Assembly: GCF_001427985.1 (NCBI RefSeq)
Contig: NZ_LMSA01000002.1
Span: forward strand, 91,550 to 155,549
Reading direction: 5' to 3'
Source: Knoellia sp. Soil729
GTDB lineage: Bacteria > Actinomycetota > Actinomycetes > Actinomycetales > Dermatophilaceae
Length of the DNA stretch: 64,000 nucleotides
Part shown: positions 74-64,000 of the stretch, one piece after another
Layout: every line of letters begins with the position of its first letter
Position numbering within the stretch: the stretch's first letter is position 1
Position numbers and translations under genes: made by a program
Notes under the pieces: model-generated
The model's input: only the letters and a program-made list of their open reading frames with translations
The model's database searches: none
Told to the model about the DNA's origin: nothing

Positions 74-337
74 GTGTGTGGTCTCGCTTTCAGTTGTGGG
101 CACGGCCAGACCGCGGGAGCAAACACGCGGGGTACCGAACGGCCCGGGGTAGGCATCCAGCCGACATCAGCGCCAGCCAGAAGGTGTACAGCGGACCATT
201 CTGCCAGACCGCGCGCGGTGCGCCGAACCGGCGGACGCGGCTCCCCGGCATACCGGGAAGAGCCGGCGGCGTATGCCGGCCCACGCCGAGCGTGGGACCC
301 GCGCCCACCCTTGCGAGTGTGCGTCACCGCGAGGACG
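74..337. other. Intergenic stretch with an inverted pair of the CGGCATAC octamer
   Basis: No convincing gene is seen here between rpsP and the membrane protein at 338. The region holds CGGCATAC at 246-253 and its reverse complement GTATGCCG at 271-278. The 9-base arms CCGGCATAC and GTATGCCGG face each other across 17 bases and can form a hairpin. The start of rpsP and its presumed upstream promoter also lie here; I see no certain -10 or -35 box. Confidence 0.5.
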
Positions 338-781
338 ATGAGTGCCATGCCGCTGCTCCTCGGCCTGTGGACGCTCACCGGTCTCGCCTGGGTCCTCACC
401 TTCATGGGGATGTTCTCGATCGGCATCTTCGTCCTGCCCGTGGCGGTGGGTCTGCTCGTCCTCTCGATCGTGCGGACCGTGCAGCGACCGGGCTGGTGGC
501 CCGCCCTGGCAGGGCTGGGGGTGGCGCTGTCGGTGGGTGTCGCCTGGCTCGGCTGGACCTTGGCCAGTGCCGGGCCCTCGCAGCTGTCGTGCTCCGGGTC
601 CTCGGACGGCCCGACCGTCTGCACGTCCGGTGGCAAGGTCATCGACCCGGACGCGGTCGACTGGGCCGTGGCCACTCCGTCCTTCGTCATGGCGGGCGTC
701 ATCGCACTCGTGTCGGTGGTCGGCTATGCCCTGCTCGCGGCGCGCAGCACCCGCGCGAGCGCGGCCATCGTGGGCAGGTAG
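338..781 (+). CDS. Small integral membrane protein of unknown function
   Basis: The frame encodes about 147 residues beginning MSAMPLLLGLWTL. Three hydrophobic segments are clear in the first 80 residues (roughly 5-25, 27-45 and 53-77) and a fourth lies near residues 115-135. The loop before it carries two Cys in a Ser/Gly-rich stretch (LSCSGSSDGPTVC), which could form a disulfide outside the membrane. I do not recognise a family. ATG 338 is preferred; ATG 347 and GTG 317 are alternatives, and the GAGG at 331-334 suits 347 better by spacing. Its last 58 bases overlap the end of the convergent kinase gene, so the two transcripts are antisense to each other there. Confidence 0.55.
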   Translation: MSAMPLLLGLWTLTGLAWVLTFMGMFSIGIFVLPVAVGLLVLSIVRTVQRPGWWPALAGLGVALSVGVAWLGWTLASAGPSQLSCSGSSDGPTVCTSGGKVIDPDAVDWAVATPSFVMAGVIALVSVVGYALLAARSTRASAAIVGR

Positions 782-1707
782 TCCGCGACCGCCTCCCTGA
801 CCTCCCCGCGAGCCTGTTCGCGCCTCGCGGGCAAGGCGCTCGTGTCGAGCGCAAGACGGATCTGGCTGGCGAGGAAGTTGGTCTCGGCGCACAGCACCAT
901 GGCGAAGTCCTCGACGCCGGCGACCACTCCCGGACCGGCCGCGGCGCGGTAGGCCCTCGTGGTCACGGCAACGGCGCCCTCGTCGACGTCGTCGCCGAGC
1001 ACGTGCCACTGCACGAGCGTCTTGGCCAGCTCGCGCGAGGGCTGCAGTGGCCCGCAGTCCTCCCAGTCGAGGGCACGCAGGCTGCCATCCGGGCCGAGGA
1101 CCACGTTGTCGGGATGCAGGTCGCAGTGGCCGAGGACGAAGGGACCTGCAGGCCGGCCGGCCCGCCGCACGACCTCGGCGTATGCCGTGAGGTCACCCAG
1201 TCGGGCCGCGAGCGCTCCGTGCCACGCCTGCCCGTGTGACCTCTGCACGAGCTCGGCCCAGGCCTGCGCCGAAGGCATCGTGGAGTGCCAGTCCCTCGGC
1301 GGCTCGACCGTCGTCGGACCGGCGCGGTGTAGCTGTGCGACAAGGGTGCCCAGCTCGCCGGCCACCTCGGAGGTACGGTCGGTGACCGGCGTCCCGGCGA
1401 CCCAGTGGCTCACGCGCGCGCTGCCACCGCCCAGCTCGGCGGGGACGTCCCTGACGAGGTGGCCGTCCGAGGTGGCGACGTGCGTGGGCACCTCCACGCC
1501 CTGCATGGCGAGCTGGTGCAGGAGCGCAGCCTCCCGCCGAACGGCCGCCGCGTCGAGCGCCCGGAAGGGCCGCTTGACCGCGAAGTCCCGCCCCGCGACC
1601 GACAGGTGCCAAACGTCGCCGTCGGCGCCACGTCCCCCGACCCGCGACGTGATCGTGCCTGTCCCCAAGCCGAACTCGGACCGGACCCACTCAGCGAAGG
1701 CGTCCAC
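724..1707 (-). CDS. Aminoglycoside phosphotransferase (APH)-fold kinase
   Basis: The 327-residue protein has the kinase-like APH fold: a probable ATP-binding Lys in FAVKRPF near residue 45, the Brenner catalytic motif HCDLHPDN at 194-201 (catalytic Asp and Mg-binding Asn) and the DWED metal motif at 214-217. Members phosphorylate aminoglycosides, homoserine, choline or other small alcohols, and the substrate cannot be deduced here. The start is GTG 1707. A copy of the octamer CGGCATAC sits just upstream at 1709-1716, in the short gap after the SDR gene. With the SDR gene only 18 bases upstream, the two are probably co-transcribed. Nothing suggests antibiotic resistance. Confidence 0.8.
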   Translation of the reverse strand: MDAFAEWVRSEFGLGTGTITSRVGGRGADGDVWHLSVAGRDFAVKRPFRALDAAAVRREAALLHQLAMQGVEVPTHVATSDGHLVRDVPAELGGGSARVSHWVAGTPVTDRTSEVAGELGTLVAQLHRAGPTTVEPPRDWHSTMPSAQAWAELVQRSHGQAWHGALAARLGDLTAYAEVVRRAGRPAGPFVLGHCDLHPDNVVLGPDGSLRALDWEDCGPLQPSRELAKTLVQWHVLGDDVDEGAVAVTTRAYRAAAGPGVVAGVEDFAMVLCAETNFLASQIRLALDTSALPARREQARGEVREAVADYLPTMAALARVLRAASRA

Positions 1708-1725
1708 GCGGCATACCTCGTCCTG

Positions 1726-4403: not shown

Positions 4404-4404
4404 G

Positions 4405-5493
4405 TCAGTAGGTCACACCGCGCAGCACGATCGCCGTGGGCTCGCCGAGAGCGGTGATGTCCTGCCGGGGGTCACGGTCCAGAACGAGCAGGTCGGCGTC
4501 GGAGCCCTCCTCGAGCCCGGGCCGGCCCAGCCAGGCGCGAGCTGCCCAGGTGGCCGCAGCGAGGGCTTCGGTGTGGCTGAAGCCGATCTTCGCGAGCTCG
4601 ACGGCCTCTTCTGCGGCCAGTCCGTGGGCGATCGAGCCTCCCGCGTCGGTCCCGAGATAGATGGGTATGCCGGCCTCTCGCGCCGCGCCGAACGTCTCGT
4701 AGCGTCGTGCGTGCAGGTCGAGCATGCGCCGGTGGTAGTCGGGGAACTTCTCCTTGGCCGGCTCGGCGATGGCCGGGAACGTCGCGATGTTGACCAGCGT
4801 CGGGACGATCGCGATCCCCTGCGCGGCGAAGGACTCGATCGTGTCCGGCTCGAGGCCGGTGGCGTGCTCGATGCAGTCGGTGCCGGCGGCCGCGAAGTCG
4901 CGCAGGGAGTCCGGGCCGAAGCAGTGGGCCGTCGTGCGCGCGCCCTCCTCGTGTGCCGCAGCGACTGCCGCGGCGAGGACATCGGCGGGCCAGCAGGGCT
5001 CGAGGTCGCCCGTCTCCCGGTCGATCCAGTCACCGACGAGCTTGACCCACCCGTCGCCGACCCTGGCCTCGATGCGGACGCGCTCGACGAGCTGCTCGGG
5101 CTCGACCTCCCACGCGTAGTTGCGGATGTAGCGCTTGGTCCGGGCGATGTGGCGCCCCGCCCGGATGACCTTGGGCAGGTCGTCGCGCTCGTCGATCCAG
5201 CGCGTGTCGGCCGGTGACCCGGCATCGCGGATGAGCAGCGTGCCGTTGTTTCGGTCCGCGAGCGCCTGGGCCTCGGTGGTGTCGTGGTCGACCTCGCCGT
5301 GATGGTCCAGACCGACGTGGCAGTGGGCGTCGACCATGCCCGGGACGAACCAGCCCCGGAGCGTCTCGACGTCGTGCCCGGCGCCGGTCGGCCGTTCGAA
5401 GGTCAGCCTCCCCCCGACCACCCACGCCTGCGGCCGGACCTCCTCGGGTCCGACCAGAACCTCGCCCAACAGGTGCAGCACCGGTGCCGTCAT
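4405..5493 (-). CDS. Amidohydrolase-superfamily metal-dependent hydrolase
   Basis: A 362-residue protein with the amidohydrolase beta-strand-1 motif MVDAHCHVG (the two His are metal ligands), further His residues in TTAHCFG and CIEHATG, and the late metal Asp in YLGTDAGG. It ends with the usual composite domain remnant (DADLLVLDRDP). The family hydrolyses cyclic amides, ureas and imides; imidazolonepropionase- and prolidase-like members are closest in feel, but no substrate can be assigned. Start ATG 5493 was chosen because the family homology begins a few residues later. An octamer copy at 4665 makes the protein use the rare Ile codon ATA. Confidence 0.75.
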   Translation of the reverse strand: MTAPVLHLLGEVLVGPEEVRPQAWVVGGRLTFERPTGAGHDVETLRGWFVPGMVDAHCHVGLDHHGEVDHDTTEAQALADRNNGTLLIRDAGSPADTRWIDERDDLPKVIRAGRHIARTKRYIRNYAWEVEPEQLVERVRIEARVGDGWVKLVGDWIDRETGDLEPCWPADVLAAAVAAAHEEGARTTAHCFGPDSLRDFAAAGTDCIEHATGLEPDTIESFAAQGIAIVPTLVNIATFPAIAEPAKEKFPDYHRRMLDLHARRYETFGAAREAGIPIYLGTDAGGSIAHGLAAEEAVELAKIGFSHTEALAAATWAARAWLGRPGLEEGSDADLLVLDRDPRQDITALGEPTAIVLRGVTY

Positions 5494-5565: not shown

Positions 5566-6399
5566 TTACGCTGGCGTTGCGGTGAGGACCCGGCGCAGGG
5601 CCTCGATGACCACCTGCGGCGCCTCGCTGTGCACCCAGTGCGACGCGCCCTTGACGGTCAGCTGCCGCACCCGCGGGAACAACGCACGCATCGTCGGACC
5701 GTCTCCCTCCTTGATGTAGCGCGACTCACCCCCAGCGATCCACAGGACCGGCCCGGCATACGGCTCGACCGCTGCCGGCGCGATCGGGAAGTCCGCGATG
5801 GCCGACTCCTGCCCACGGGCGGCGTCGGCCACGAAGAGGTCGAGGTTGGCCTGCCAGCGCCAGGACGAGCCCTCGCGCCGCAGGTTCTGCAGGAGGAAGG
5901 CCTTGACGCCCGGGTCCGGCTCCTCGAAGCGTGCCTCGGCGTCCGCCCGGTCCCGCAGCTCGTCCAGGGGCAGGCGCTTCATCTCCTGCATGTAGCGGGT
6001 GAACCGCGTGAGGTTGCCGTAGCTCTTGGGCGCGATGTCGACGACGACGAGCCGTGACACCAGGGCCGGGTCGGTCAGGGCCAGCACCATGGCGACCTTG
6101 CCACCGAGCGAGTGCCCGACGACCACCCAGGGGCCGGGGTCGATGGCGCGCAACGTCGAGGCGACGGACACGGCATACGCCATGTAGGAGAACTGCGCCG
6201 ACCACGGACTGCGACCGTGGTCCGGGAGGTCGACGAGCGTGCACCGCGCCCCCGTGCCATCAGGCCCCGCCAACGCCTTGGCGATCGTCGACCAGTTGCG
6301 CCCCTGCCCGAAGAGTCCGTGGAGGAAGGCGACGCGTGGCCCGGCCGTGCCCACCGACAACGTGTGCAGCTGCCCGGGGTCCACGGCCGCGGCGCTCAC
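5566..6399 (-). CDS. Alpha/beta-hydrolase fold esterase (YbfF-like)
   Basis: 277 residues with the oxyanion-loop motif FLHGLFGQGRNW near the N-terminus, the nucleophile elbow GHSLGG (catalytic Ser), and a C-terminal His in GASHWVHSEAP. Overall layout and length fit the YbfF/acyl-esterase group of intracellular hydrolases. The GTG start overlaps the ffh stop by a few bases (GTGA type), so it is translationally coupled behind ffh. The substrate is unknown; short-chain acyl esters or acyl-CoA thioesters are typical of the group. Confidence 0.78.
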   Translation of the reverse strand: MSAAAVDPGQLHTLSVGTAGPRVAFLHGLFGQGRNWSTIAKALAGPDGTGARCTLVDLPDHGRSPWSAQFSYMAYAVSVASTLRAIDPGPWVVVGHSLGGKVAMVLALTDPALVSRLVVVDIAPKSYGNLTRFTRYMQEMKRLPLDELRDRADAEARFEEPDPGVKAFLLQNLRREGSSWRWQANLDLFVADAARGQESAIADFPIAPAAVEPYAGPVLWIAGGESRYIKEGDGPTMRALFPRVRQLTVKGASHWVHSEAPQVVIEALRRVLTATPA

Positions 6400-8003
6400 T
6401 TGCCCAGGAACTTCTCGAAGCCCTTGGGGAGCTGCGACGGGTCCATCGCGGCCGGGTCGAGCCCACCGGGGGCGCCGCCGCCGCCGAAGGAGCTGCCGGC
6501 CGGCCTGGACGAAGCACGCTGTGCCTCGGCCTGGGCGTCGGCCGCGCGCTTGGCCGGGTTGCCCGACTTGGACTTCTTGCCCCGGACCTGTTGCTGCTGC
6601 TGACGAGCCTTCTTGCCGCCGCCACCGCCCATGCCCGGCATGCCGGGGATGCCGCCACCGCGGGCGAGCTGCTTCATCATCTTCTGCGCCTCGCCGAAGC
6701 GCTCGAGCAGCTGGTTGACCTCGGACACGGTCACACCGGAGCCGCCGGCGATGCGGGCGCGGCGGGAGCCGTTGATCTGCTTGGGGTGGTTGCGCTCGAA
6801 GGGCGTCATGGAGCGCACCATCGCCTCGACCCGGTCGAACTCGCGCTCGTCGAGGGCGTCGAGCTGGGCCGACATCTGGCCCATGCCCGGCATCATCTTG
6901 AGCATCGACTTGAGCGAGCCCATCTTCTTGATCGCCGACATCTGCTGGAGGAAGTCGTCGAAGGTGAAGTCCTCGGCCGCGAGGAACTTGCGCTCCATCT
7001 CGGCGGCCTGGCCGCGGTCGAAGGCCTTCTCGGCCTGCTCGATGAGGGTGAGGACGTCACCCATGTCGAGGATGCGCGAGGCCATGCGGTCGGGGTGGAA
7101 GACCTCGAAGTCCCGCACGTTCTCGCCGGTCGACGCAAACATGATGGGGCGACCGGTGAGGCCGGCGACGGAGAGCGCGGCGCCGCCGCGGGCATCGCCG
7201 TCGAGCTTGGTGAGGACGACGCCGGTGAAGTCGACGCCCTCGAGGAACGCCTCGGCGGTCTCGACGGCGGCCTGGCCGATCATCGCGTCGATGACGAAGA
7301 GGACCTCGTCGGGGTTGATCGCGGCCCGGATGTCGCCGGCCTGCTGCATGAGGTCGGAATCGACCGCCAGACGACCGGCGGTGTCGACGATGACGACGTC
7401 GTGGTGCTTGGTGACGGCTTCGCGTATGCCGTCACGCGACACCGTGACCGGGTCCCCGAAGCTCCGGGTGCCCTCGCCCGTGGGTCCGACGGCGTCGTGG
7501 CCACCGACGTTGCCCTGCTCGGGAGCGAAGACGGGGATGCCAGCACGCTCACCGACGACCTGGAGCTGGGTCACGGCATTGGGTCGCTGCAGGTCCGCGG
7601 CGACGAGAATCGGGGTGTGGCCCTGCTCCTTGAGCCAGCGGGCGAGCTTGCCTGCGAGCGTGGTCTTGCCCGCGCCCTGCAGGCCGGCGAGCATGATGAC
7701 GGTCGGGCCGGTCTTGGCGAAGCGGATCGTGCGGGTCTGCCCGCCGAGGATGTCGACGAGCTCCTCGTTGACGATCTTGACGACCTGCTGGGCCGGGTTG
7801 AGCGCCTGCGACACCTCGGCCCCGAGCGCACGATCACGGACGGCGGAGGTGAAGTCCTTGACGACCGGCAGGGCCACGTCGGCGTCGAGCAGGGCCATCC
7901 GGATGTCGCGGACGGTCTTGTTGACGTCGGACTCGGACAAGCGCCCCTTGGTGCGGAGGTTCTTGAAGGTCGCTGTCAGGCGGTCTGAGAGGCTCGTGAA
8001 CAC
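6396..8003 (-). CDS. ffh: Signal recognition particle protein Ffh (SRP54)
   Basis: 535 residues in N-G-M order. The N domain starts MFTSLSDRLTATFKNL, and the G domain has the P-loop GLQGAGKTT, DLQRPNA, DTAGRL and TKLDGDARGG. The M domain is methionine-rich (MPGMGQMSAQLD) and the tail is Gly/Met- and Lys/Gln-rich. Ffh binds 4.5S RNA and nascent signal sequences and docks with FtsY to target ribosomes to SecYEG. The G domain carries an insertion around VGGHDAVGPTGEGTRSF that I associate with actinobacterial Ffh. Within the octamer copy at 7424 the frame uses the rare codon ATA (Gly-Ile-Arg). Confidence 0.97.
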   Translation of the reverse strand: MFTSLSDRLTATFKNLRTKGRLSESDVNKTVRDIRMALLDADVALPVVKDFTSAVRDRALGAEVSQALNPAQQVVKIVNEELVDILGGQTRTIRFAKTGPTVIMLAGLQGAGKTTLAGKLARWLKEQGHTPILVAADLQRPNAVTQLQVVGERAGIPVFAPEQGNVGGHDAVGPTGEGTRSFGDPVTVSRDGIREAVTKHHDVVIVDTAGRLAVDSDLMQQAGDIRAAINPDEVLFVIDAMIGQAAVETAEAFLEGVDFTGVVLTKLDGDARGGAALSVAGLTGRPIMFASTGENVRDFEVFHPDRMASRILDMGDVLTLIEQAEKAFDRGQAAEMERKFLAAEDFTFDDFLQQMSAIKKMGSLKSMLKMMPGMGQMSAQLDALDEREFDRVEAMVRSMTPFERNHPKQINGSRRARIAGGSGVTVSEVNQLLERFGEAQKMMKQLARGGGIPGMPGMGGGGGKKARQQQQQVRGKKSKSGNPAKRAADAQAEAQRASSRPAGSSFGGGGAPGGLDPAAMDPSQLPKGFEKFLGK

Positions 8004-8063: not shown

Positions 8064-8086
8064 CGGCATACCGACTGGGTATGCCG
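8064..8086. repeat. Hairpin formed by two facing CGGCATAC octamers
   Basis: CGGCATACC and GGTATGCCG are separated by GACTG only, giving a compact 9-bp stem and 5-base loop in the gap between ffh and glnD. It lies downstream of glnD, so it may work as a transcription terminator, but no T tract follows in that direction. The same octamer is scattered over the whole window. Confidence 0.7.
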
Positions 8087-8190: not shown

Positions 8191-10569
8191 TCAGATCGCA
8201 CCGTCACAGGTGTCAATGATCGCCGCCACGACCTGGGCGACCTTGGCCGGTTCGAGCGGCCGGCCCGAGAAGTCCGAGACGTAGAACGTGTCGAGCGTCT
8301 GGCCGGCATAGGTCGCAATGTGCGCGGAGCGCACCGAGACCCCGGCCTTGGCGAAGGCCATGCCGAGCTCGTGGAGGAGCCCGGGGCGGTCGTCTGCGCG
8401 CACCTCGAGGACCGTGGCGTGGGTGCTCGCACCCGGCACGACCAGCGCCCGGGGCTGGCCCGGCGTACCGATCGTGGAGCTGCCGCTGGGCCGCGTGGCG
8501 AACTGCCGTCGGCGGTCGAGGAGGCTGAGCGGCCCGCGGTCGCCGGTGGCGAGACGCATCAGGCCACGCACGATCCGTTCCTGCTCGGGCCCTGCGTCGC
8601 TGGGGCTCTCGACGTGCCACTCGTTGACCGCCATCCCGTCGTGCGTCCTCAGTACCGCCGTGCGCACGACCAGTCCCTCGGCGGCGAGCAGCCCCGCGGT
8701 GTCGGCGAAAAGCCCGAGGCGGTCGCGGTCCGCGATGTCGACGCGGTAGGAGCCTCCGTGGGACACGACCCGCACGTGGGGTTCGCCGGAGACCAGCGTC
8801 CTCACGACGTCGTCGGGGACGACGGCAGGTGCGGCCTCGCCCTCGGCCGGTGCAGGTGGGCGGAGCCGGGCGCGGACAGCGGCGGCGAGCTGACCCAGCA
8901 GGGCGGCCCGCCAGTCTGTCCACGCCGTGGGTCCGGCGGCGACGGCGTCCGCCTCGGTCAGGGCGAGCAAGAGCTCGAAGCGGTCGCTGTCACCGTCGAC
9001 CGCTGCCAGGGCGGCCTCGATCGTGCGGGGGTCCGCGTGGTCGCGCCGGGTCGCGAGCTCGATGAGCGTCAGGTGCTCCCGCACGAGCGAGGTGACGACG
9101 GCGACGTCGTCCTCGTCGTGACCGAGTCGCCGCATGACCGTCTGGGCGATGGGTGCGCCGGTGACCGAGTGGTCGTGGGAGCCGGGGAGCTTGCCGATGT
9201 CGTGGAGGAGGGCAGCGAGCAGCAGGAGGTCCGCCCGTCCCACACCGCGCACCAGCCCGGTCGCGTGGACGACGGTCTCGATGAGGTGGCGGTCGACCGT
9301 GTGCCGGTGCACGGCGTTGCGCTGGGGTCGCGAGCGCACCGAGGCCCACTGCGGCAGCCAGCGCTCGATGATGCCCTGCTGGTCCAGGCCCTCCCAGACG
9401 GTGACCAGACCCGGACCCGACGCGAGCAGGTCGCCGAACAGGCCGCGGGCGAGCGGTGACCAGGGGGTGGGCAGGTCGGGACACCTCGTCGCGAGGTTCT
9501 CGAGCGTGGTCGGAGCGATGGGCAGGTTCGCACGGGCCGCGGCCACGGCTGCCCGCAGTGGCAGGTGCGGGTCGGAGTCGAGGAGCCGCCCGGAGCCGAG
9601 CACGACCTCGCCGTCGCTCTCGAAGAGGCCGTGGCCGAGTGGCGCCATCTGCGGGCGACGCGGACCGACGCGCAGGACCCGCGCTCGCTGCGACTGCCCC
9701 GCCCTGCGCAGGGTCCCGTCGAGTGCATAGGCGATCGAGCGGCCTGCGTCCGAGGTGTCTGCGAGCAGGTCGTCGGGGTCGTCGTAGCCCAGCAGCGCCG
9801 CGACGGCGTCGTGGTCCTCGCGCCCGAGACGGTCGCGTCCGCGGCCGGTGACGACGTGGACCGCGTCGCGCACGTCGAGCAGGAGCCCGTATGCCGTGTC
9901 GACCTCACCTCGGGGCCGGTCGGCCAGCCAGGCCTCGGCCAGGGCGCTGAGGACCCTCATGTCGCGCAGGCCACCGCGGGCCTCCTTGAGGTCGGGTTCG
10001 ATCGACTGGGCCAGGTCGCCGTGCCTGCGGTGGCGCACGGCCATGGCCTCGGCCAGCTGGGGCAGCCGCTTGCGCGCGTTGGCGCGCCAGTCGTGGCTCA
10101 CGGTGGCCCGGGCCGCCGTGACGACCTCGGCGTCTCCGGCGACGGGTGAGATGTCGAGCAGCCCGACGGCTGCGGTGAGGTCCTCGGCGGCGACGCGGCG
10201 GCACTGGCTCACCGTCCTCACGCTGTGGTCGAGGCGGATCCCGGCGTCCCAGATCGGGTACCAGATCCGGTCGGCGAGACGGGTGACCTCGTCACCGGAC
10301 AGGGTCCGGCCATAGTGCAGGAGGACGAGGTCGTAGTCCGACAGCGGCCCGGCGTCGCCGCGGCCGACGCTCCCGACGGCCGCGAGGGCAACGCCGTCGA
10401 CCGGGCGGCCATGCGTGGCCTCGCGCCACAGCCCACCCAGCCACTGGGTGTTGAAGTCCGCGAGCCGCTGGCGGCGCTCCTGCCCGGAGCCGGGGTGCTC
10501 GAAGGCCCGCGTGCCGGCCAGGTCCAGCCGCCGTGCCGCAACGTCCACGACCTCGGCGCCGTCACTCAT
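8191..10569 (-). CDS. glnD: Bifunctional PII uridylyl/adenylyl-transferase and removing enzyme GlnD
   Basis: 792 residues. The nucleotidyltransferase motif GSVGRGDAGPLSDYD is at 66-80. An HD phosphohydrolase domain follows (LLAALLHDIGKLPGSHDH), and two ACT domains fill the last 200 residues, ending in APTHATVLEVRADDRPGLLHEL-like sequence. GlnD senses glutamine through the ACT domains and modifies or demodifies the PII protein at Tyr51; in actinobacteria the modification is adenylylation. It is downstream of amtB-glnB in the same direction, separated from glnB by a strong hairpin, so it may be expressed at a lower level than they are. Confidence 0.95.
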   Translation of the reverse strand: MSDGAEVVDVAARRLDLAGTRAFEHPGSGQERRQRLADFNTQWLGGLWREATHGRPVDGVALAAVGSVGRGDAGPLSDYDLVLLHYGRTLSGDEVTRLADRIWYPIWDAGIRLDHSVRTVSQCRRVAAEDLTAAVGLLDISPVAGDAEVVTAARATVSHDWRANARKRLPQLAEAMAVRHRRHGDLAQSIEPDLKEARGGLRDMRVLSALAEAWLADRPRGEVDTAYGLLLDVRDAVHVVTGRGRDRLGREDHDAVAALLGYDDPDDLLADTSDAGRSIAYALDGTLRRAGQSQRARVLRVGPRRPQMAPLGHGLFESDGEVVLGSGRLLDSDPHLPLRAAVAAARANLPIAPTTLENLATRCPDLPTPWSPLARGLFGDLLASGPGLVTVWEGLDQQGIIERWLPQWASVRSRPQRNAVHRHTVDRHLIETVVHATGLVRGVGRADLLLLAALLHDIGKLPGSHDHSVTGAPIAQTVMRRLGHDEDDVAVVTSLVREHLTLIELATRRDHADPRTIEAALAAVDGDSDRFELLLALTEADAVAAGPTAWTDWRAALLGQLAAAVRARLRPPAPAEGEAAPAVVPDDVVRTLVSGEPHVRVVSHGGSYRVDIADRDRLGLFADTAGLLAAEGLVVRTAVLRTHDGMAVNEWHVESPSDAGPEQERIVRGLMRLATGDRGPLSLLDRRRQFATRPSGSSTIGTPGQPRALVVPGASTHATVLEVRADDRPGLLHELGMAFAKAGVSVRSAHIATYAGQTLDTFYVSDFSGRPLEPAKVAQVVAAIIDTCDGAI

Positions 10570-12566: not shown

Positions 12567-12959
12567 ATGGCTCGACCAGTACTCGTCTACGACGGTGGTT
12601 GCGGCGTGTGCACGAGGCTGGCCACAGTGGTGACCACCCGGCTGCGCAGCAGGCCCGAGGACTACGACGTCACCGCCTACCAGGATGCCGACCTCGCGGC
12701 GCTGGGCCTCACCGCGCAGGAGTGCGACGCGGCCCTGCAGTGGGTCTCCGCGGACGGGCGGGTGAGCTCGGGCGAGGACGCCGTCGCCCAGGCCCTTCGG
12801 GCGTCACGTATGCCGGCCCGCCCCCTGGGTGCCCTGGTCCAGGTCCCCGTTGTGCACGCCATCGCCGGCCTCGCCTACCGCTGGGTGGCGAACCACCGGC
12901 ACCTCCTCCCGGGCGGCACCCCGGCCTGCTCCTTGCCGGCGGGGCAACGTCCCTCCTGA
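12567..12959 (+). CDS. DCC-family (DUF393) thiol-disulfide oxidoreductase-like protein
   Basis: 130 residues beginning MARPVLVYDGGCGVCTRL. The DxxCxxC-type motif DGGCGVC at 9-15 is diagnostic of the DCC/DUF393 family, a thioredoxin-like group with a presumed redox-active Cys pair. No signal peptide is visible, so it is probably cytoplasmic. The sequence GAGACT at 12555-12560, six bases before the ATG, resembles an actinobacterial -10 box, so the transcript may be leaderless. It converges on the MDMPI gene. Biochemical function is unknown for most members. Confidence 0.75.
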   Translation: MARPVLVYDGGCGVCTRLATVVTTRLRSRPEDYDVTAYQDADLAALGLTAQECDAALQWVSADGRVSSGEDAVAQALRASRMPARPLGALVQVPVVHAIAGLAYRWVANHRHLLPGGTPACSLPAGQRPS

Positions 12960-22141: not shown

Positions 22142-22224
22142 CGCCCCATCGTAGGAACGTTCCCCTCCCGCAGTGCCCACGTCCCACGAGCCGGTATGCC
22201 GTCCGCCCCCGGCCCGTGCGCACG

Positions 22225-34700: not shown

Positions 34701-34848
34701 GCACCCACCTCCTGAGCCACCCGAGACTTGCGGACCACCGGCACGGTACCGTGCAGACACCGACGCCCCGGCGACGGTCAAGGCACGATCCAGCAGACCC
34801 AGCGGAACGGCATACGGTGCTCGTTCCACGACAGTGAGGTGACACCCA

Positions 34849-36770: not shown

Positions 36771-36808
36771 CGCTCTGGACCCTATCTCGCGGAAGCGGGC
36801 ACACGGCA

Positions 36809-36821
36809 TACGCTCGCTCGC
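36809..36821 (+). promoter_or_regulatory. Leaderless-type -10 box overlapping an octamer
   Basis: TACGCT at 36809-36814 is followed by seven bases and the GTG 36822. The octamer CGGCATAC (36804-36811) supplies the first three bases of the box, so one sequence serves as octamer copy and as promoter. Confidence 0.45.
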
Positions 36822-45548: not shown

Positions 45549-45578
45549 CCGCCGCGGTGAGGCCACGGCATACACGCA

Positions 45579-47903: not shown

Positions 47904-49136
47904 TCAGGTCTCGCGCCGCGCAGCCAGCCAGGCACGCTCGGCCGGGTTCTGCGTGGTCGCGATCGCGGCGGCATACGCGTGGGTTGCGTCCTCCGCACGT
48001 CCGAGACGGCGCAGCAGCTCCGCTCTGCTTGCGTGCCATGGTGCGTATGCCGTGAGCTCCAGTGCGTCGATGACCGCCAGTGCGACGTGGGGCCCGTCGA
48101 CCTCGGCGAGGGCGACCGCACGGTTGAGCTCGACGACCGGTGTGGGGTGGACGCGCACGAGCTGGTCGTAGAGCGCGAGCACCTGGCCCCAGTCGGTGGC
48201 CGATGCCTCGAGGGTGTCGGTGTGGACGGCCTGGATCGCGGCCTGCAGCTGGTAGGCACCAGGAGCATTGCGGCGCAGGCACTCTCGCACGAGCGCGTGG
48301 CCCTCCTCGATGAGCCCGAGGTCCCACAGGGTCCGGTCCTGCTCGCTGAGGGTGACCCACCGCCCGTCGGCGCCGATGCGTGCGGGGCGGCGGGCTCGGC
48401 TCAGGAGCATGAGCGCGAGCAGGCCGTCGACCTCGGGTGGTGAGCCGACGCCGACCGCGATCGACTGCACCTGGCGAGTGAGCCTGATGGCCTCGTCGGC
48501 GAGGTCCTGGCGGTCGGCACCGTCACCGCTGGAGCTGAGGTAGCCCTCGTTGTAGATGAGGTACAGCACCGCGAGCACGCCATCGAGGCGTTCGGCGAGG
48601 TCGTCCGGGGCAGGGACTCGGTACGGGATCCGGGCCCTGGCGATCTTGCCCTTGGCGCGGGTGATGCGCTGGGCCATGGTCGTCTCGGGGACGAGGAAGG
48701 CGCTGGCGATCTCCGCAACGGTGAGGCCGCCGAGCAGGCGCAGGGTCAGGGCGACCCTGGCCGGCTCGGCGAGCGCGGGGTGGCAGCAGGTGAAGATCAG
48801 CCGGAGCCGGTCGTCCTTCACCGGACCGCTCGCCTCCGGGGGCGTGTCGTCGGTGAGCATGGCGGCCTCGGCGTACTTCTCGTCGCGCACCTTCTCGCGA
48901 CGGAGGTGGTCCAGCGCCTTGCGGCTGGCCGTGGTGGTGAGCCACCCGGCGGGGTTGGGCGGGACACCGTCGCGGGGCCACCGCTGGAGCGCGATGACGA
49001 TGGCCTCGCCGAGGGCGTCCTCGGCCACGCCGATGTCGCCGTAGCGACGGATGAGACCGGCAACCACCCGGCCGTACTCGGTGCGGACGACGTCGGCGAC
49101 GGCGTCCGAACCACGAGCGGCTGCGGGGGCGGGCAC
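47904..49136 (-). CDS. ECF-type RNA polymerase sigma factor with C-terminal SnoaL/TPR-like extension (ECF42 type)
   Basis: 410 residues (GTG start). The ECF sigma2 region is AEDALGEAIVIALQRWPRDGVPPNPAGWLTTTASRKALD and sigma4 is LTVAEIASAFLVPETTMAQRITRAKGKI. About 200 residues follow, including a helical-repeat-like region (AIQAVHTDTLEASATDWGQVLALYDQLVRV), the large C-terminal extension that marks the ECF42 group. The gene lies just below a DGPF/YCII partner, as in ECF42 systems. The extension is thought to replace an anti-sigma factor. It probably regulates its own operon. Confidence 0.9.
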   Translation of the reverse strand: MPAPAAARGSDAVADVVRTEYGRVVAGLIRRYGDIGVAEDALGEAIVIALQRWPRDGVPPNPAGWLTTTASRKALDHLRREKVRDEKYAEAAMLTDDTPPEASGPVKDDRLRLIFTCCHPALAEPARVALTLRLLGGLTVAEIASAFLVPETTMAQRITRAKGKIARARIPYRVPAPDDLAERLDGVLAVLYLIYNEGYLSSSGDGADRQDLADEAIRLTRQVQSIAVGVGSPPEVDGLLALMLLSRARRPARIGADGRWVTLSEQDRTLWDLGLIEEGHALVRECLRRNAPGAYQLQAAIQAVHTDTLEASATDWGQVLALYDQLVRVHPTPVVELNRAVALAEVDGPHVALAVIDALELTAYAPWHASRAELLRRLGRAEDATHAYAAAIATTQNPAERAWLAARRET

Positions 49137-50441: not shown

Positions 50442-51290
50442 TCACTCCAGGCGAGCAGCGACGGTCGACGCGAGGACGGCATACCCGGCGTCGTTGGCGT
50501 GGATGTCGCTCTTGGTGCACATCCAGGTCCAGGCGCAGATCGTCGCGACGTTGGTCGGGATGGGTCCGTATGCCGTGGTCACGGGTGTCGTGTTGGTGGA
50601 CCTGAACGCCGTGGCGACGTCCGCGACGTCGGCCCCGGCCGTGGCCGCCGCACGAGCGACCGCGGCGTTGAGTGCGCCCTGCAACACGCTCGATGCCCCT
50701 GCAGCCGTCTGACCGGCCGTACCGGTGAGCCAAAGGGCGAGGAACGGGTTGTAGTAGTTCAGGACGACGATCTGGGTGTCCGGGCCGGTCGCGGCGCGCA
50801 GCTCGCCGAGCGTCTTGGTGAGGTTGGCCTCAACCGTGCCGACCGCCTTCAGGGCGCACGTGAAGTCGATCACCGGGCGTGCACACGGGGTGACGTCGTT
50901 GGCGCCGATGTCGATGGTGACGAGGTCGACCTTGCTCTTGTGCGCCTTGAGGAACTGCACGCCCTCGGCCAGCTGGCTGCCGGCCTCGTAGGCGCAGCGG
51001 TCGGTGCCCATGAGCGAGGTGGTCGTCGCTCCGGAGCACGAGATGTTGCGCAGCTTGGCCTTGGGAGCGGTCTCCTGCAGGGCGTCCAGCACGCCGCCGA
51101 CGTAGCCGCCAGTGCGGTCGTCGCCCACCCCTGGCTGGTATCCGGCCGCGAGGGAGTCACCGAGGGCGAGGTACCAGCTCGTCGCGTTCTGCGCCGCCTT
51201 GCCCTGGTCGCCGCCCGGGCCTGCGTACGCAGCGGACGGCGCCACGAGGGCGAGGAAGCAGGCGATGACCAGGGTGAGGGTTCGACGCAT
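50442..51290 (-). CDS. Secreted SGNH/GDSL-family esterase/lipase
   Basis: 282 residues with a signal peptide (RRTLTLVIACFLALVAPSAAYA, cleavage after AYA). The mature protein opens LALGDSLAAGYQPG (Ser block), then GATTTSLMG, DIGANDVTP (block with Gly/Asn) and DIHANDAGYAVLA (catalytic Asp-His). Paired Cys probably form disulfides. Such enzymes cleave acyl esters outside the cell. GGAGC lies about seven bases before ATG 51290. Two octamer copies (50477, 50568) are inside the gene. Confidence 0.9.
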   Translation of the reverse strand: MRRTLTLVIACFLALVAPSAAYAGPGGDQGKAAQNATSWYLALGDSLAAGYQPGVGDDRTGGYVGGVLDALQETAPKAKLRNISCSGATTTSLMGTDRCAYEAGSQLAEGVQFLKAHKSKVDLVTIDIGANDVTPCARPVIDFTCALKAVGTVEANLTKTLGELRAATGPDTQIVVLNYYNPFLALWLTGTAGQTAAGASSVLQGALNAAVARAAATAGADVADVATAFRSTNTTPVTTAYGPIPTNVATICAWTWMCTKSDIHANDAGYAVLASTVAARLE

Positions 51291-51408: not shown

Positions 51409-52305
51409 ATGCTGCCGGACGCCCCCACCCTCCTCGACTCCCCGACATGGACCGTGCGCGAGTCCGCCCACCACTCGCGGGTCGAGGCGGCGACCGCGGC
51501 GCACCGAGCCCGGCGCGGCCAGCAGGTGCGCCACCCGGTCGAGGACTTCCTCTTCAGCTACTACTCGACGACGCCCGCGCAGCTGCGCCGTTGGCACCCC
51601 GGCGCCGGCGTGCGCCTGGCCGGTGCGAGCGGCCTCGAGCGAGCGGGGTGGAAGCACTACCGCGTCGTGGACGACGCGGTCGAGCTCGACGTCGAGGCGT
51701 TCGTCGCGGCCCGCGGACGCGCGGTCGAGTTCATCGCGCGGCTGCTTTCGGCGACGGCCTCGCGACCTGCTCGGCTCGGCTGCTTCGGCCTGCACGAGTG
51801 GGCCATGGTGTATCGCGCCACGGACGGTGACATCCGGCACGAGCAGGTGCCACTGCGCCTGAGCCAGGCTGCGACGGACGCGGTCGTCGAGCGCCACCAG
51901 ATCACGTGCACCCACTTCGACGCGTTCCGCTTCTTCACGGCGGATGCGTTGCCCCGCAACGCTGTCCAGCCCACGAGGGAGTCGCAGGTCGCGCTCGAGC
52001 AGCCGGGCTGCCTGCACGCGGGGATGGACGTCTACAAGTGGGCGACGAAGCTCACTCCACTCGTGCCGAGCGAGCTCACGCTGGACTGCTTCGACCTCGC
52101 GATGGAGATCCGCCTCCTTGACATGCAGGCGTCGCCCTACGACCTCTCCGCCTACGACGTCGAACCGGTGAGGATCGAGACGGCAACGGGCAAGGCGGCA
52201 TACCTCGAGCGCCAGCGAGCGTTCGCCGAGCGCTCCAACGTCCTGCGCCACCGCCTGCTCACGGTCCTCGAGACCTCGGGCGCTGCTGGGCTCATTCGGG
52301 CCTGA
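51409..52305 (+). CDS. Protein annotated in relatives as 3-methyladenine DNA glycosylase
   Basis: 298 residues starting MLPDAPTLLDSPTW. The sequence (LGCFGLHEWAMVYR, RHEQVPLRL, THFDAFRFFT, CLHAGMDVYKWATKL, ASPYDLSAYD) is characteristic of an actinobacterial family usually called 3-methyladenine DNA glycosylase. No helix-hairpin-helix or other known glycosylase motif is visible, so the name rests on annotation tradition. TACGCT (51394-51399) lies nine bases before the ATG. Its C-terminal codons overlap the end of convergent arfB. Confidence 0.65.
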   Translation: MLPDAPTLLDSPTWTVRESAHHSRVEAATAAHRARRGQQVRHPVEDFLFSYYSTTPAQLRRWHPGAGVRLAGASGLERAGWKHYRVVDDAVELDVEAFVAARGRAVEFIARLLSATASRPARLGCFGLHEWAMVYRATDGDIRHEQVPLRLSQAATDAVVERHQITCTHFDAFRFFTADALPRNAVQPTRESQVALEQPGCLHAGMDVYKWATKLTPLVPSELTLDCFDLAMEIRLLDMQASPYDLSAYDVEPVRIETATGKAAYLERQRAFAERSNVLRHRLLTVLETSGAAGLIRA

Positions 52306-52784: not shown

Positions 52785-54398
52785 TCAGCGTGCGGGCACT
52801 CCCGCCCGAAGCAGGCCGTAGGTCACGCTCTCGACGAGGGCCCTCCAGCTCGCCTCGAGGATGTTGGGGGCGACGCCGATGGTCTCCCAGGTCGTCTCGC
52901 CGTCACTGGTCTCGATGAGGACGCGGGTCACGGCGTCGGTGCCGTGGGCGGCGTCGAGGATGCGCACGCGGTAGTCGATGAGCTCGAGGTGCTCGACCTC
53001 GGGATAGGCCGGGGCCAGCGCCAGGCGCAGGGCGTGGTCGAGCGCGTTCACCGGGCCGTTGCCCTCGCCGGTGCGCAGCACCCTCTTGCCGCCGGCCGTG
53101 AGCTTGACCGTCGCCTCCGAGAGGGCCTCACCCTCGGACTGCGAGTCCGTGATGACCCGCCACGACTCGACCTCGAAGAAGGCGGGGAGGGCGCCGTCGA
53201 TCTCGCGTCGCAGCAGCAGCTCGAAGCTCGCGTCGGCCGCGTCGAAGGTGTAGCCGCGCAGCTCGAGGTCCTTGACCATTGCCAGCACCTTCTGGACGAG
53301 CACGCCGTCGGCCTCGTTCTGCGAGTCGAGCTCGAGGCCGAGCTCGCGCGACTTCAGCTCGACCGAGGCACGTCCGGCCATGTCCGAGATGAGCATGCGC
53401 ATGTCGTTGCCGACGTGCTTGGGGTCGAGGTGCTGGTAGAGGTCCGGGTCGACCTTGATGGCGCTGGCGTGCAGGCCCGCCTTGTGTGCGAAGGCGCTGG
53501 CTCCCGTGTAGGGCTGACGGCTGTAGGCCGGCACGTTCGTGATCTCACTGATCGCGTGGCTGATGCGCGTCGACTCCTGCAGGCGGTGCGGCTCCATGAC
53601 CGACACCCCCTCCTTGAGCTGGAGGTTGGCCACCACCGTGACGAGGTTGGCGTTGCCGGTGCGCTCGCCGTAGCCGTTGATCGTGCCCTGCACGTGCGTT
53701 GCGCCGGCGTCGACGGCAGCCATCGAGTTGGCCACGGCACAACCGGTGTCGTTGTGGCAGTGGATGCCGAGACGAGCGTCCGCCCCGGTCGGGTCCAGCC
53801 CGAGCGCCGCGACCACGTCGGTGACGACGTCCCACACCTGCCCGGGCAACATGCCGCCGTTGGTGTCGCACAGCGCAGCCACCTCCGCACCCGACTCGAG
53901 CGCAGCGTGAAGTGCCTCGAGGGCGTACGCCCGGTCCACGGCATACCCGTCGAAGAAGTGCTCCGCGTCCAGGAAGACGCGCCGCCCCTCCCCCCGCAGG
54001 AACGACACGGTGTCGCGGATCATCTCGAGGTTCTCCGCACCGGTCGTGCGCAGCGCCCGCTCGACGTGCCCGATGTGCGACTTGGCGACGAGGGTGACGA
54101 CAGGTGCCTGGCTGTCCAGGAGGGCCCGCACGAGCGGATCGGTCGAGGCCTGGCCTCCGGCCCGGCGGGTGGCGCCGAACGCGGCGAGGGTGGCGTTGTG
54201 GAGCGTGAGCTCGGTGGCGGCCCGGGCGAAGAACTCGGTGTCCTTGGGGTTCGCGCCGGGCCAGCCACCTTCGATGAAGCCGACTCCGAGGTCGTCGAGG
54301 TGGGACGCGATCGTGAGCTTGTCCACGACAGAGAGGTTGAGTCCCTCCTGCTGGGCACCGTCACGCAACGTCGTGTCGTAGACGTGCAAGTCGCTCAT
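52785..54398 (-). CDS. cimA: (R)-citramalate synthase
   Basis: 537 residues starting MSDLHVYDTTLRDGAQQEGLN. The DRE-TIM fold shows RDGAQQEG, HCHNDTGCAVANSMAAVDAGATHVQGT and GERTGNANL; the C-terminal domain (SFELLLRREIDG, HALRLALAP, DYRVRILD) is the LeuA-type regulatory domain. CimA condenses pyruvate and acetyl-CoA to citramalate, a route to isoleucine using LeuCD and LeuB. 2-isopropylmalate synthase and homocitrate synthase are the alternatives, but the sequence suits the CimA group. A leader attenuator precedes it. Confidence 0.88.
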   Translation of the reverse strand: MSDLHVYDTTLRDGAQQEGLNLSVVDKLTIASHLDDLGVGFIEGGWPGANPKDTEFFARAATELTLHNATLAAFGATRRAGGQASTDPLVRALLDSQAPVVTLVAKSHIGHVERALRTTGAENLEMIRDTVSFLRGEGRRVFLDAEHFFDGYAVDRAYALEALHAALESGAEVAALCDTNGGMLPGQVWDVVTDVVAALGLDPTGADARLGIHCHNDTGCAVANSMAAVDAGATHVQGTINGYGERTGNANLVTVVANLQLKEGVSVMEPHRLQESTRISHAISEITNVPAYSRQPYTGASAFAHKAGLHASAIKVDPDLYQHLDPKHVGNDMRMLISDMAGRASVELKSRELGLELDSQNEADGVLVQKVLAMVKDLELRGYTFDAADASFELLLRREIDGALPAFFEVESWRVITDSQSEGEALSEATVKLTAGGKRVLRTGEGNGPVNALDHALRLALAPAYPEVEHLELIDYRVRILDAAHGTDAVTRVLIETSDGETTWETIGVAPNILEASWRALVESVTYGLLRAGVPAR

Positions 54399-54637: not shown

Positions 54638-54778
54638 GAGAGTCACAGGCAGAGCGTGGCAGAACAGACCAGCATCCGGGAAGGCCTGTCCACATCGTGG
54701 GCACCCTCCTCGTCCGCGTCTCGTCATCGCCTGCGCGAGCGGTTGATTCGACGTATGCCGTCCGCTCGCCCACGTCGC

Positions 54779-59549: not shown

Positions 59550-59551
59550 GC

Positions 59552-62188: not shown

Positions 62189-62931
62189 CGCTCCAGTGTC
62201 ACCCCACCGCTCCCCTCGGGACGACAGGCCGCCACCAGTGCGTCGAAGAGTCGCGTGTCCGTCCCCGCCTCGGGGTGCCACTGGACGGCAAGACGGAACG
62301 GGTATGCCGTGTCCTCCATCGCTTCGAGCGTCCCGTCCTCGTGCCACGCCGCGGCGTCGTACCCGGGGTGGGCGCGCACCGCCTGGTGGTGGTAGGTCGG
62401 GACGTCGAGGACGTCCCCGCCGAGGATCGACTCCAGGAGCGTGCCCTCGACCGGAGTCACGTGGTGCGAGGCATAGACGCCCGGCGTCGGGCTGTGCGCC
62501 TCGTGCCCCACTCTGTCCGGGACGTGCTGCTCGAGCTCGCCCCCGGCCTCGACCGCCATGACCTGCATGCCACGACAGATGCCGAACAGGGGAAGCCTCG
62601 TCTGCGCGGTCACCCGGGCCACCGCGAGCTCGAAGGTGTCCCGGTCCGGTCGGGGCGACTGGATGCGGGAGTCGGGCACGGCGGCATACCGGCTGGGTTC
62701 GACATCGGCGCCACCGGCGATGATGACGCCGTCCAGACGCGCGAGCAGCCCTGCGACGAGGGCGTCGTCGGCGTCGAGGCGGGGTGGGAGCACCACGGCG
62801 ATGCCGCCAGCGCGCTCGACGTGCTCCACGTAGGCGTGCGGCAGCACCGCGCTGCGCTGGCCGGCCCAGTCGCCGCGAGAGACCGGCTCGACATAGCTCG
62901 TGATGCCGATGACCGGCCTCGCGTCCGCCAC
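62185..62931 (-). CDS. Class I glutamine amidotransferase-like gamma-glutamyl hydrolase (PuuD family)
   Basis: 248 residues (GTG start) beginning VADARPVIGITSY. The catalytic triad motifs are in place: FGICRGMQVMAVEAGG (Cys), VYASHHVTPVEG-like segments and AVQWHPEA (His-Glu). PuuD-type enzymes hydrolyse gamma-glutamyl-gamma-aminobutyrate in the glutamylated putrescine pathway. The neighbours (SDR, aldehyde dehydrogenase) fit polyamine or amine degradation, as in Streptomyces GlnA3-type clusters. Octamer copies at 62302 and 62682 are within the gene. Confidence 0.88.
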   Translation of the reverse strand: MADARPVIGITSYVEPVSRGDWAGQRSAVLPHAYVEHVERAGGIAVVLPPRLDADDALVAGLLARLDGVIIAGGADVEPSRYAAVPDSRIQSPRPDRDTFELAVARVTAQTRLPLFGICRGMQVMAVEAGGELEQHVPDRVGHEAHSPTPGVYASHHVTPVEGTLLESILGGDVLDVPTYHHQAVRAHPGYDAAAWHEDGTLEAMEDTAYPFRLAVQWHPEAGTDTRLFDALVAACRPEGSGGVTLER

Positions 62932-62932
62932 G

Positions 62933-63700
62933 TCAGAGGGGCGTGACGTAGGCGCCGGAGATGCCGCCGTCGACGAGGAACGTGTTGGCAGTGATGAAGC
63001 TCGACTCGTCGGAGGCGAGGAAGAGCACGGCGTTGGCCATCTCCTCGGGCTCCCCGAACCGCCCCATCGGCACGTGCACGAGGCGCCGAGCCGCGCGCTC
63101 CTCGTCCTTGGCGAACAGCTCGCGCAACAAAGGCGTGTTGACCGGTCCAGGGCACAGCGCGTTGACGCGCACCCCCTGCCGGGCGAACTGCACCCCGAGC
63201 TCGCGCGACATGGACAGCACCCCGCCCTTGGAGGCGCTGTAGGAGATCTGCGAGGTCGCCGCGCCCATGACCGCGACGAAGGACGCCGTGTTGATGATCG
63301 AGCCCTTGCCCTGCTCGAGCATGTAGGGGATGGCCGCCTTGCAGCAGAGGTAGACCGAGGTGAGGTTGACCTCCTGGACCTTGCGCCAGGCGTCGAGGTC
63401 GGTGTCGAGGATGGAGTCGTCCTCGGGCGGGCTGATGCCGGCGTTGTTGAACGCGATGTCGACGCTGCCGAACTTCTCCTTGGCCGTCGCGAACAGCGCG
63501 TCGACCTCGTCCTTGCTGGTGACGTCGCAGTGGACGTAGGCGCAGCCGACCTCCTGCGCGATGCGCTCACCGTTGGCGTCGTCGAGGTCGCCGATGACGA
63601 CCTTGGCGCCCTCCTCCGCGAACCGTCGCACCGTCGCGAGCCCGATGCCGGAGCACCCTCCCGTGACGACGGCGACCTTGCCTGCCAGCCGATCTCCCAT
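62933..63700 (-). CDS. Short-chain dehydrogenase/reductase
   Basis: 255 residues starting MGDRLAGKVAVVTGGCSGIG. Classical SDR motifs: TGGCSGIG cofactor site, DVTS, NNAG, the Ser-Tyr-Lys triad as NTASF and YSASK, and PGPVNTPLL. The enzyme probably oxidises an alcohol or reduces a carbonyl with NAD(P)H; in this cluster it may act on an amino-aldehyde or alcohol intermediate. ATG 63700 is preferred over TTG 63709. Confidence 0.9.
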   Translation of the reverse strand: MGDRLAGKVAVVTGGCSGIGLATVRRFAEEGAKVVIGDLDDANGERIAQEVGCAYVHCDVTSKDEVDALFATAKEKFGSVDIAFNNAGISPPEDDSILDTDLDAWRKVQEVNLTSVYLCCKAAIPYMLEQGKGSIINTASFVAVMGAATSQISYSASKGGVLSMSRELGVQFARQGVRVNALCPGPVNTPLLRELFAKDEERAARRLVHVPMGRFGEPEEMANAVLFLASDESSFITANTFLVDGGISGAYVTPL

Positions 63701-63726
63701 GTCTACCAAGCCTTTCAGTGAAGCAG

Positions 63727-64000
63727 TCAGTTGTCGGTGCTGATGAAGACGTTCTTGACCTCGGTGAACGCATCGAGCGCATCGGGGCCGAGCTCGCGCC
63801 CGATGCCGCTCGCCTTGTAGCCACCGAAGGGGGTCGAGTAGCGCACGCTGCTGTGGCTGTTGACCGACAGGTTGCCGGCCTCCACCGCCCGCGAGACGCG
63901 GATCGCGCGACCGACGTCGCGTGTCCAGATCGAGCCGGACAGCCCGTATGCCGTGTCGTTGGCCATCCGGATCGCGTCGGCTTCGTCGTCGAACGGCATG
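63727..64000 (-). CDS. Aldehyde dehydrogenase, C-terminal part (cut by window edge)
   Basis: The last 91 codons of an aldehyde dehydrogenase; the start and catalytic Cys lie beyond the window. The C-terminal signature (NDTAYGLSGSIWTRDVGRA, GNLSVNSHSS, GGYKASGIGRELGPDALDAFTEVKNVFI) is unmistakable. It probably oxidises an aminoaldehyde such as gamma-glutamyl-aminobutyraldehyde. Transcription runs from it into the SDR, GATase and MBL genes. An octamer copy at 63946 encodes Ala-Tyr. Confidence 0.9.
   Translation of the reverse strand, partial: MPFDDEADAIRMANDTAYGLSGSIWTRDVGRAIRVSRAVEAGNLSVNSHSSVRYSTPFGGYKASGIGRELGPDALDAFTEVKNVFISTDN

Follow-up and report, generated by a model that had tools for sequence, protein, structure and literature searches.

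In the window, a 64,000-bp stretch of the Knoellia sp. Soil729 genome (contig NZ_LMSA01000002.1, positions 91,550 to 155,549), the 8-base word CGGCATAC occurs 21 times on the plus strand and 22 times on the minus strand (as GTATGCCG), and we judge, at roughly three chances in four, that it serves as a DNA uptake sequence in Knoellia and in much of its family, Intrasporangiaceae (the NCBI placement; Dermatophilaceae in GTDB). A first-pass annotation of the window had named an uptake sequence as one option, and this sequence-based reading is now well supported because strand neutrality, intergenic density, inverted pairs, dialects, conservation of sites among carriers only and word-poor mobile DNA together match the neisserial and pasteurellacean uptake words.

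Abundance of the word

Our recount of the window agreed exactly with the 21 + 22 copies of the first-pass annotation. Its expectation of about 2.3 copies stands as a base-composition figure; Markov models of orders 1-3 give lower values (0.7, 1.0 and 1.9) and an excess of 23- to 63-fold, and at orders 4-6, whose models take in parts of the word itself, the values are 7.8, 26 and 39. In the whole source genome (G000; 3,605,744 bases, 8 contigs), CGGCATAC was found 2138 times (1083 + 1055), compared to 89 (51 + 38) for the reversed word used as control. A 464-kb sample, consisting of the window and 20 further stretches of the same genome, held 268 copies versus 16.4 expected from base composition and 5.5, 7.7 and 12.1 under Markov orders 1-3, and no octamer of this sample reached a higher z-score (268 vs 7.7, order 2). 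The genome-wide octamer count, which had been proposed as a check, is thus not near Markov expectation. As is typical of uptake sequences, this is a strongly over-represented, short and non-palindromic word. HIP1 (GCGATCGC), a palindromic hyper-abundant cyanobacterial octamer, resembles it in genome-wide abundance, whereas CGGCATAC is not self-complementary and forms inverted pairs.

The earlier remarks on the flanks were also accurate: C precedes every GGCATAC in the window (43/43), and the pattern VCGGCATACV has exactly two exceptions, both minus-strand copies (Table 1). Across the 464-kb sample, A precedes the word in 126 of 268 copies, T is rare before (6/268) and after it (7/268), and position -5 is G or C in 256 of 268. 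One-mismatch forms stood at about background, except CGGCCTAC (49 vs 10.4, order 1) and CGGCATAG (23 vs 4.9); we rejected CGGCCTAC as a variant of the word, its excess being codon-driven, with 47 of 49 copies in the GCC TAC frame.

Gene context, strand and pairing

Using a simple gene caller of our own, which assigned 88% of the 464-kb sample to coding sequence, we located 183 copies within genes and 83 between genes, with 2 partial, so that intergenic DNA (~12% of the sample) is about threefold denser in the word (ratio 2.83 in a second run with slightly different settings). The annotation had described the copies as spread over genes and gaps, and both are indeed occupied. Presence within genes, enrichment between them and inversion of close pairs are all features of uptake sequences.

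Orientation was neutral both locally and genome-wide. The strand ratio was 83:87 in a 300-kb segment of the own genome (C1a), each of whose 15 20-kb blocks was also close to balance, and the totals over 75 carrier genomes were 71,079:70,850, with one of the 75 deviating at P < 0.05. Together with the 1083/1055 split in G000, this is the equal orientation frequency seen in uptake sequences.

Among own-genome pairs at most 60 bp apart, 16 of 17 were inverted, and 14 of these 16 did not lie within one gene; 10 of the 16 were between tandem genes and 2 between convergent genes. In 5 of the 16, sequence matching (no folding program) extended the stem inside the words by 3-9 more perfect base pairs, and a terminator role for such pairs is possible. 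In other genera, close pairs were inverted rather than direct at 10:2 for CGGCATAC, and the words described below behaved alike (CGGCATCC 7:1, CGGCATTC 2:0, CGTCATAC 2:0, CCGCATAC 1:0 and CCCCCTTCG 7:1, the last with 8 close pairs vs 2.2 expected). For CGGCATAC, it is the orientation of close pairs, not their number, that is striking.

Spacing was more even than random in C1a (coefficient of variation 0.84, P = 0.013), and the coefficient was 0.91 (P = 0.24) in the 104-kb segment C2a, which holds the window. The 7.5-kb desert reported in the window is a real gap (54753-62302) of ordinary length (P = 0.66 that a simulated maximum gap in the 104-kb segment is no longer than the observed one). 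We therefore discarded the idea of an island; the genes read there by eye include those for a Fur-like protein, a catalase, and proteins of metabolism or of unknown function. In the C1 segment, the longest stretches free of the word are three gaps of 6.9-7.1 kb, of which two cover glycosyltransferase/polysaccharide genes and one a cluster that by eye resembles type VII secretion.

Distribution across the family

We surveyed 58 genomes of the order (9 Knoellia, 27 other family members and 22 from outside the family) and, separately, a draw of 129 family genomes from 53 genera, calling a genome word-plus at 250 or more copies of CGGCATAC and at least 2.5 times the count of the reversed word, a cut-off of our own. 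All nine Knoellia genomes carried the word (1971-3277 copies), as did many, not all, of the 27 other family genomes, and none of the 22 outside the family exceeded 167 copies. In the larger draw, 75 of 129 genomes were word-plus, representing 33 of 53 genera. Loss was also seen inside genera, with 19 copies in G097 compared to 1062 and 3681 in its genus-mates G032 and G123, and 37 copies in G150 compared to 1251-1660 in four genus-mates. Named loci with enrichment came from Phycicoccus elongatus, Intrasporangium oryzae, Humibacillus, Terrabacter, an uncultured Tetrasphaera and two Ornithinimicrobium, with a weaker signal in an Arsenicicoccus locus (6 copies); the loci of Dermacoccus abyssi, Intrasporangium flavum, Ornithinimicrobium CNJ-824 and an uncultured Phycicoccus (L108) displayed none, and none of the other 56 loci of 8 kb or more (L126-L185, most of them from other actinobacterial families) exceeded 3 copies.

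Dialects, site conservation and a second word

One-base variants of the word characterize particular genera, as the clade-specific dialects of uptake sequences do. CGGCATCC was the dialect in pooled stretches of G033, G024 and G009, with whole-genome counts of 3949, 3816 and 1336, respectively, compared to 260-976 in other family genomes. CGTCATAC accompanied CGGCATAC in pooled stretches of G011, G012 and G034 and, more weakly, of G013, G019 and G025; its whole-genome counts were 1954 (G034), 1557 (G011), 834 (G012), 597 (G019), 347 (G013) and 344 (G025), and at most 78 in the remaining 20 of 26 genomes. From stretches only, CGGCATTC was recognized in G020, which also holds 1025 copies of CGGCATAC genome-wide, and CCGCATAC in G027 and G025. 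At one orthologous own-genome site, Knoellia, G012, G015 and G029 have CGGCATAC, G009 has CGGCATCC and G020 has CGGCATTC. G027 shows CCGCATAC at two further sites and G034 shows CGTCATAC at one, and many aligned orthologous places have no word at all. A further candidate, CGGCGTAC, was enriched in several word-minus genomes and yet also in Nocardioides, Kribbella and Hamadaea loci, with an intergenic ratio of 1.00, and was dropped as a dialect.

Site conservation was assessed at the comEC and tad loci, with octamers containing three A/T as control. Own sites were retained in 21 of the 26 sister-species comparisons (control 3430/13888, 0.25), which answers the sister-genome check that had been suggested, in 18 of 54 comparisons with other word-plus genera (control 3339/26862), and in 0 of 41 with word-minus genomes (control 2475/21157, 0.12).

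Dialect genomes were nested among CGGCATAC genomes in trees of TadA+TadB (37 genomes) and ComEC (33 genomes), and in both CGGCATCC occupied two separate places (G009; G024 with G033); several inner branches are weakly supported, and the number of word changes is not firm. Sampling of word-minus genomes revealed CCCCCTTC(G) in genera g58 and g59 (nonamer 71 vs 3.3 in 140 kb). The word CCCCCTTCG, which is unrelated to CGGCATAC, was present in all eight sampled genomes of these genera (1265-1939 copies vs 11-30 reversed; loci L229, L230, L233-L236 and L245), with balanced strands (e.g., 954/985 and 833/833), an intergenic density ratio of 2.90 and a gene context like that of CGGCATAC, and none of the other 121 family genomes exceeded 80 copies. 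Seven sampled carriers of CCCCCTTCG formed one clade (97/99) within the CGGCATAC-holding part of the TadA+TadB tree.

Outside the family, G055 (another family of the order; L220-L222) was enriched in a GGCATCC-like word, with whole-genome CGGCATCC counts of 774/774 vs 87/97; a longer GGCATCC form had uneven strands (13:26) in a 60-kb sample.

Competence and pilus genes

G000 encodes the competence machinery that accompanies uptake sequences: ComEA (SLBB + HHH) and ComEC lie in tandem, and a Tad operon lies ~10-15 kb past the window end, with TadA, two T2SSF proteins (TadB, TadC), two TadE-like proteins, one TadE/G-like protein and a small protein taken by eye as Flp, for which no Pfam or NCBIfam match was obtained. 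A second, Cpa-type Tad locus was noted by eye. A type IVa pilus was rejected as the uptake machine, since the PilM_2 model has matches in 2 of the 36 family genomes and in none of the 9 Knoellia. Micrococcus luteus likewise has comEA/comEC and a Tad locus (TadA, Flp, TadE, TadF), and its Flp pilus is required for transformation (PMC6370729, in part); for Knoellia, transformation is a prediction from the gene set, and the accessible part of that paper does not mention an uptake word for M. luteus.

In the examined stretches of G077 and of G097, the word-poor member of a carrier genus, flp-tadE-G went unrecognized beside TadA-C, and in G027 an insertion sequence-type integrase gene occupies the flp-tadE-G place. 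Near the tad genes of G033 (L196, ~1074-1590), TTCCAGAA recurs 14 times with a 39-base period inside a repeat-coding open reading frame, and in the tad operon a few kb away flp and tadE-G went unrecognized.

Loss and interruption of tadA

When the 129 family genomes were searched at a cut-off of E 1e-84, 4 of the 75 word-plus and 14 of the 54 word-minus genomes lacked tadA (Fisher P = 0.0014, uncorrected for kinship, and with carriers of other words counted as word-minus). The six genera whose sampled genomes of at least 90% completeness all lacked a match were word-minus throughout; a laxer cut-off returned weaker matches, of ~40% identity or less, in the searched members of tadA-lacking genera.

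In 7 of 129 genomes (G002, G015, G035, G064, G132, G146, G147), tadA was split into two collinear pieces that lie 5-35 kb from each other on one contig (the N-terminal piece of G064 being only 49% identical), and the same was found in G005, outside this draw. TadA fragments only were seen in G004, G008, G028 (contig ends) and G066, and other partial matches near contig ends were excluded from the split count. The four inserts that we read (Table 1) encode a large serine recombinase (G015 and G035, the latter also type I restriction proteins), tyrosine recombinases (G002), and an IS110-type transposase with a ResIII protein (G005). Insertions occurred at several different codons, with the N-terminal pieces of G008, G015, G035 and G147 ending near residue 208-210. 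Three inserts in word-plus genomes held 2 words vs 28.1 expected at the genome rate, and their flanks 26 vs 26.2. Mobile elements are known to interrupt competence genes in other bacteria (PMC4774983, in part), and by analogy the disruption of tadA supports, short of proof, a role of the Tad locus in transformation.

Discussion

Alternative explanations were weighed against these results. Codon usage or composition could in principle place genic copies, which fall mainly on Ala-Tyr and Tyr-Ala pairs, yet the 183 coding copies in the 464-kb sample are tenfold above the 17.6 ± 3.7 left by synonymous shuffling (controls near expectation: reversed word 6 vs 6.9; CGGCATCC 59 vs 50.2), and the word is densest outside genes and forces rare codons, 17 of 28 in-frame ATA and 85 of 345 TAT codons falling inside it. 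The codon-usage check posed by the first-pass annotation thus leaves the enrichment unexplained, and we regard a by-product of this kind as refuted. E. coli Chi is an octamer of similar abundance, and a polar recombination or translocation element (Chi, KOPS/FtsK) would fit the length and copy number of CGGCATAC; the strands, however, are balanced locally and genome-wide, the replication-linked orientation bias of such elements is absent across the 15 blocks of the 300-kb segment, and neither intergenic enrichment nor inverted pairs agree with it. The KOPS/Chi-like option of the annotation is contradicted in its usual polar form, as its own argument from strand balance had correctly implied, and we hold it to be very improbable.

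Two further proposals fare somewhat better and still appear improbable. A DNA modification system (solitary methyltransferase, BREX-type or phosphorothioation) might keep the word in a HIP1-like manner, selected for regulation, repair or self-marking, and non-palindromic targets, clade-specific changes and near-miss words mostly at background are compatible with this; it does not predict, and poorly explains, inverted close pairs and between-species site conservation, HIP1 itself is palindromic, and the recognition sites of modification systems are usually avoided or neutral, whereas CGGCATAC is 24-fold enriched. Much the same low standing belongs to a nucleoid or chromosome-organizing protein that binds without polarity along the genome: high copy number and the more even spacing in one of two segments (C1a, not C2a) speak for it, whereas loss in whole genera and in single species such as G097 would be odd for a housekeeping site, as would full replacement by the unrelated CCCCCTTCG in two genera.

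The uptake-sequence reading carries four inferences: the organism is competent, the word alters uptake, the pilus that takes up DNA is Tad, and the word is maintained by biased uptake. Extracellular DNA bearing CGGCATAC would be preferred during natural transformation, the choice probably being made by a putative sequence-selective receptor on the Tad/Flp pilus or at ComEA, and the chosen DNA would pass through ComEC and recombine into the chromosome. The word may become fixed and repaired genome-wide, on both strands, because word-bearing copies would be imported and recombined more often, and foreign DNA would stay word-poor; if receptor preference drifted or the receptor were replaced, the genome would drift to a new dialect or word. 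We lean, with less assurance, towards the wider view that Actinomycetota independently evolved a Tad/Flp-driven transformation guided by uptake sequences, in which the word drifted by single bases several times and was once replaced outright, and which mobile elements counter via the pilus ATPase gene.

Several observations weigh against the uptake-sequence reading. One-mismatch copies are barely enriched, although decay should leave such copies behind unless replacement is very efficient, and close pairs are only moderately more numerous than chance (own genome 17 vs 9.3; other genera 12 vs 8.6). Agreement between dialects and sites may arise by chance, as the CGGCATAC genome G028 has CGGCATCC at one of the own sites and the word-minus G035 has CGTCATAC at another. 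ComEC, present once in each of 36/36 family genomes, failed as a discriminator of carriers, and 40 of 54 word-minus genomes (which include carriers of other words) have a tadA match. Four of 75 word-plus genomes lack such a match (G004 with a fragment, G076 with distant ATPases only, G113 and G115 incomplete), and G066 has 1939 copies of CCCCCTTCG but only a broken tadA remnant. In the examined stretches of the dialect carriers G027 and G033, flp-tadE-G went unrecognized downstream of TadA-C, which are present. No receptor candidate stands out among the Tad pilins, which are similarly diverged in CGGCATAC and CCCCCTTCG genomes, and nothing in their comparison separates the words. The literature matches listed include no uptake or transformation experiment on any family member.

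The closest parallels lie in two Gram-negative groups. The neisserial DNA uptake sequence (DUS) is present in thousands of copies, with dialects differing by one or a few bases, inverted pairs and wordless relatives (PMC3630211, in part), and the present case resembles it in thousands of short-word copies, genus dialects, genomes with two dialects, inverted pairs that could fold into stem-loops, and relatives without the word. GTATGCCG and AT-DUS have the six letters ATGCCG in common. The differences are a Gram-positive host of the Actinomycetota, an 8-base word of another sequence and of predicted function, and a Tad/Flp locus, with no receptor like the neisserial ComP identified. In Pasteurellaceae, a ~9-base word is highly enriched and two types (Hin, Apl) exist in one family (PMC12616744, in part); a short enriched word with two types inside one family recurs here, whereas sequence, phylum and pilus type differ and the second word, CCCCCTTCG, is unrelated and not a variant. 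According to the accessible part of the same 2025 paper, only two Gram-negative families are known to select DNA by uptake words, and the present candidate would differ from these in phylum, in pilus type and in having two unrelated words in one family. Judged by titles among the literature matches listed, there is no account of CGGCATAC, GTATGCCG or longer forms as a known element; among the matches listed for uptake sequences in Actinobacteria or Gram-positives nothing concerned such a word, and for over-represented words in Knoellia or the family nothing was relevant.

Nothing shows more clearly than uptake words that bacteria are selective about the DNA they import. If the reading is true, it would add a third case, Gram-positive and with a Tad pilus, that covers at least 33 of the 53 genera sampled and includes dialects, losses and one word swap, and would provide an independent replicate for the question of drive versus selection in the origin of uptake words. 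Comparative genomics could then find the receptor, and Knoellia, Phycicoccus, Terrabacter and relatives would be naturally transformable with word-bearing DNA, which would also offer a genetic tool.

Copies in the window

Table 1. Positions of the word in the window (window coordinates) and of the elements that split tadA (coordinates within each locus).
Feature	Coordinates	Strand	Remark
CGGCATAC copy	246..253	+	inverted pair with 271, 17-base spacer
CGGCATAC copy	271..278	-	inverted partner of 246
CGGCATAC copy	1180..1187	-	
CGGCATAC copy	1709..1716	+	
CGGCATAC copy	4665..4672	-	
CGGCATAC copy	5754..5761	+	
CGGCATAC copy	6171..6178	+	
CGGCATAC copy	7424..7431	-	
CGGCATAC copy	8064..8071	+	inverted pair with 8079, 7-base spacer
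CGGCATAC copy	8079..8086	-	inverted partner of 8064
CGGCATAC copy	9889..9896	-	
CGGCATAC copy	12808..12815	-	
CGGCATAC copy	15201..15208	-	
CGGCATAC copy	16340..16347	+	
CGGCATAC copy	19024..19031	-	
CGGCATAC copy	20478..20485	+	
CGGCATAC copy	22004..22011	+	
CGGCATAC copy	22194..22201	-	
CGGCATAC copy	24533..24540	+	
CGGCATAC copy	27192..27199	-	
CGGCATAC copy	27255..27262	-	T before word
CGGCATAC copy	27578..27585	+	
CGGCATAC copy	28944..28951	+	
CGGCATAC copy	33651..33658	-	
CGGCATAC copy	34808..34815	+	
CGGCATAC copy	35202..35209	-	
CGGCATAC copy	35284..35291	+	
CGGCATAC copy	36804..36811	+	
CGGCATAC copy	38399..38406	-	T after word
CGGCATAC copy	39703..39710	-	
CGGCATAC copy	42690..42697	-	
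CGGCATAC copy	43058..43065	+	
CGGCATAC copy	45566..45573	+	
CGGCATAC copy	47969..47976	+	
CGGCATAC copy	48045..48052	-	
CGGCATAC copy	50477..50484	+	
CGGCATAC copy	50568..50575	-	
CGGCATAC copy	52196..52203	+	
CGGCATAC copy	53939..53946	+	
CGGCATAC copy	54753..54760	-	
CGGCATAC copy	62302..62309	-	
CGGCATAC copy	62682..62689	+	
CGGCATAC copy	63946..63953	-	
tadA-splitting elements	L186 5166-11940; L187 3087-17079; L188 4857-15882; L189 4449-20000 with L190 1-19198		

Within window positions 27192-27262, the two same-strand copies lie 63 bp apart and share nearly identical 15 preceding bases, as if by a small duplication.

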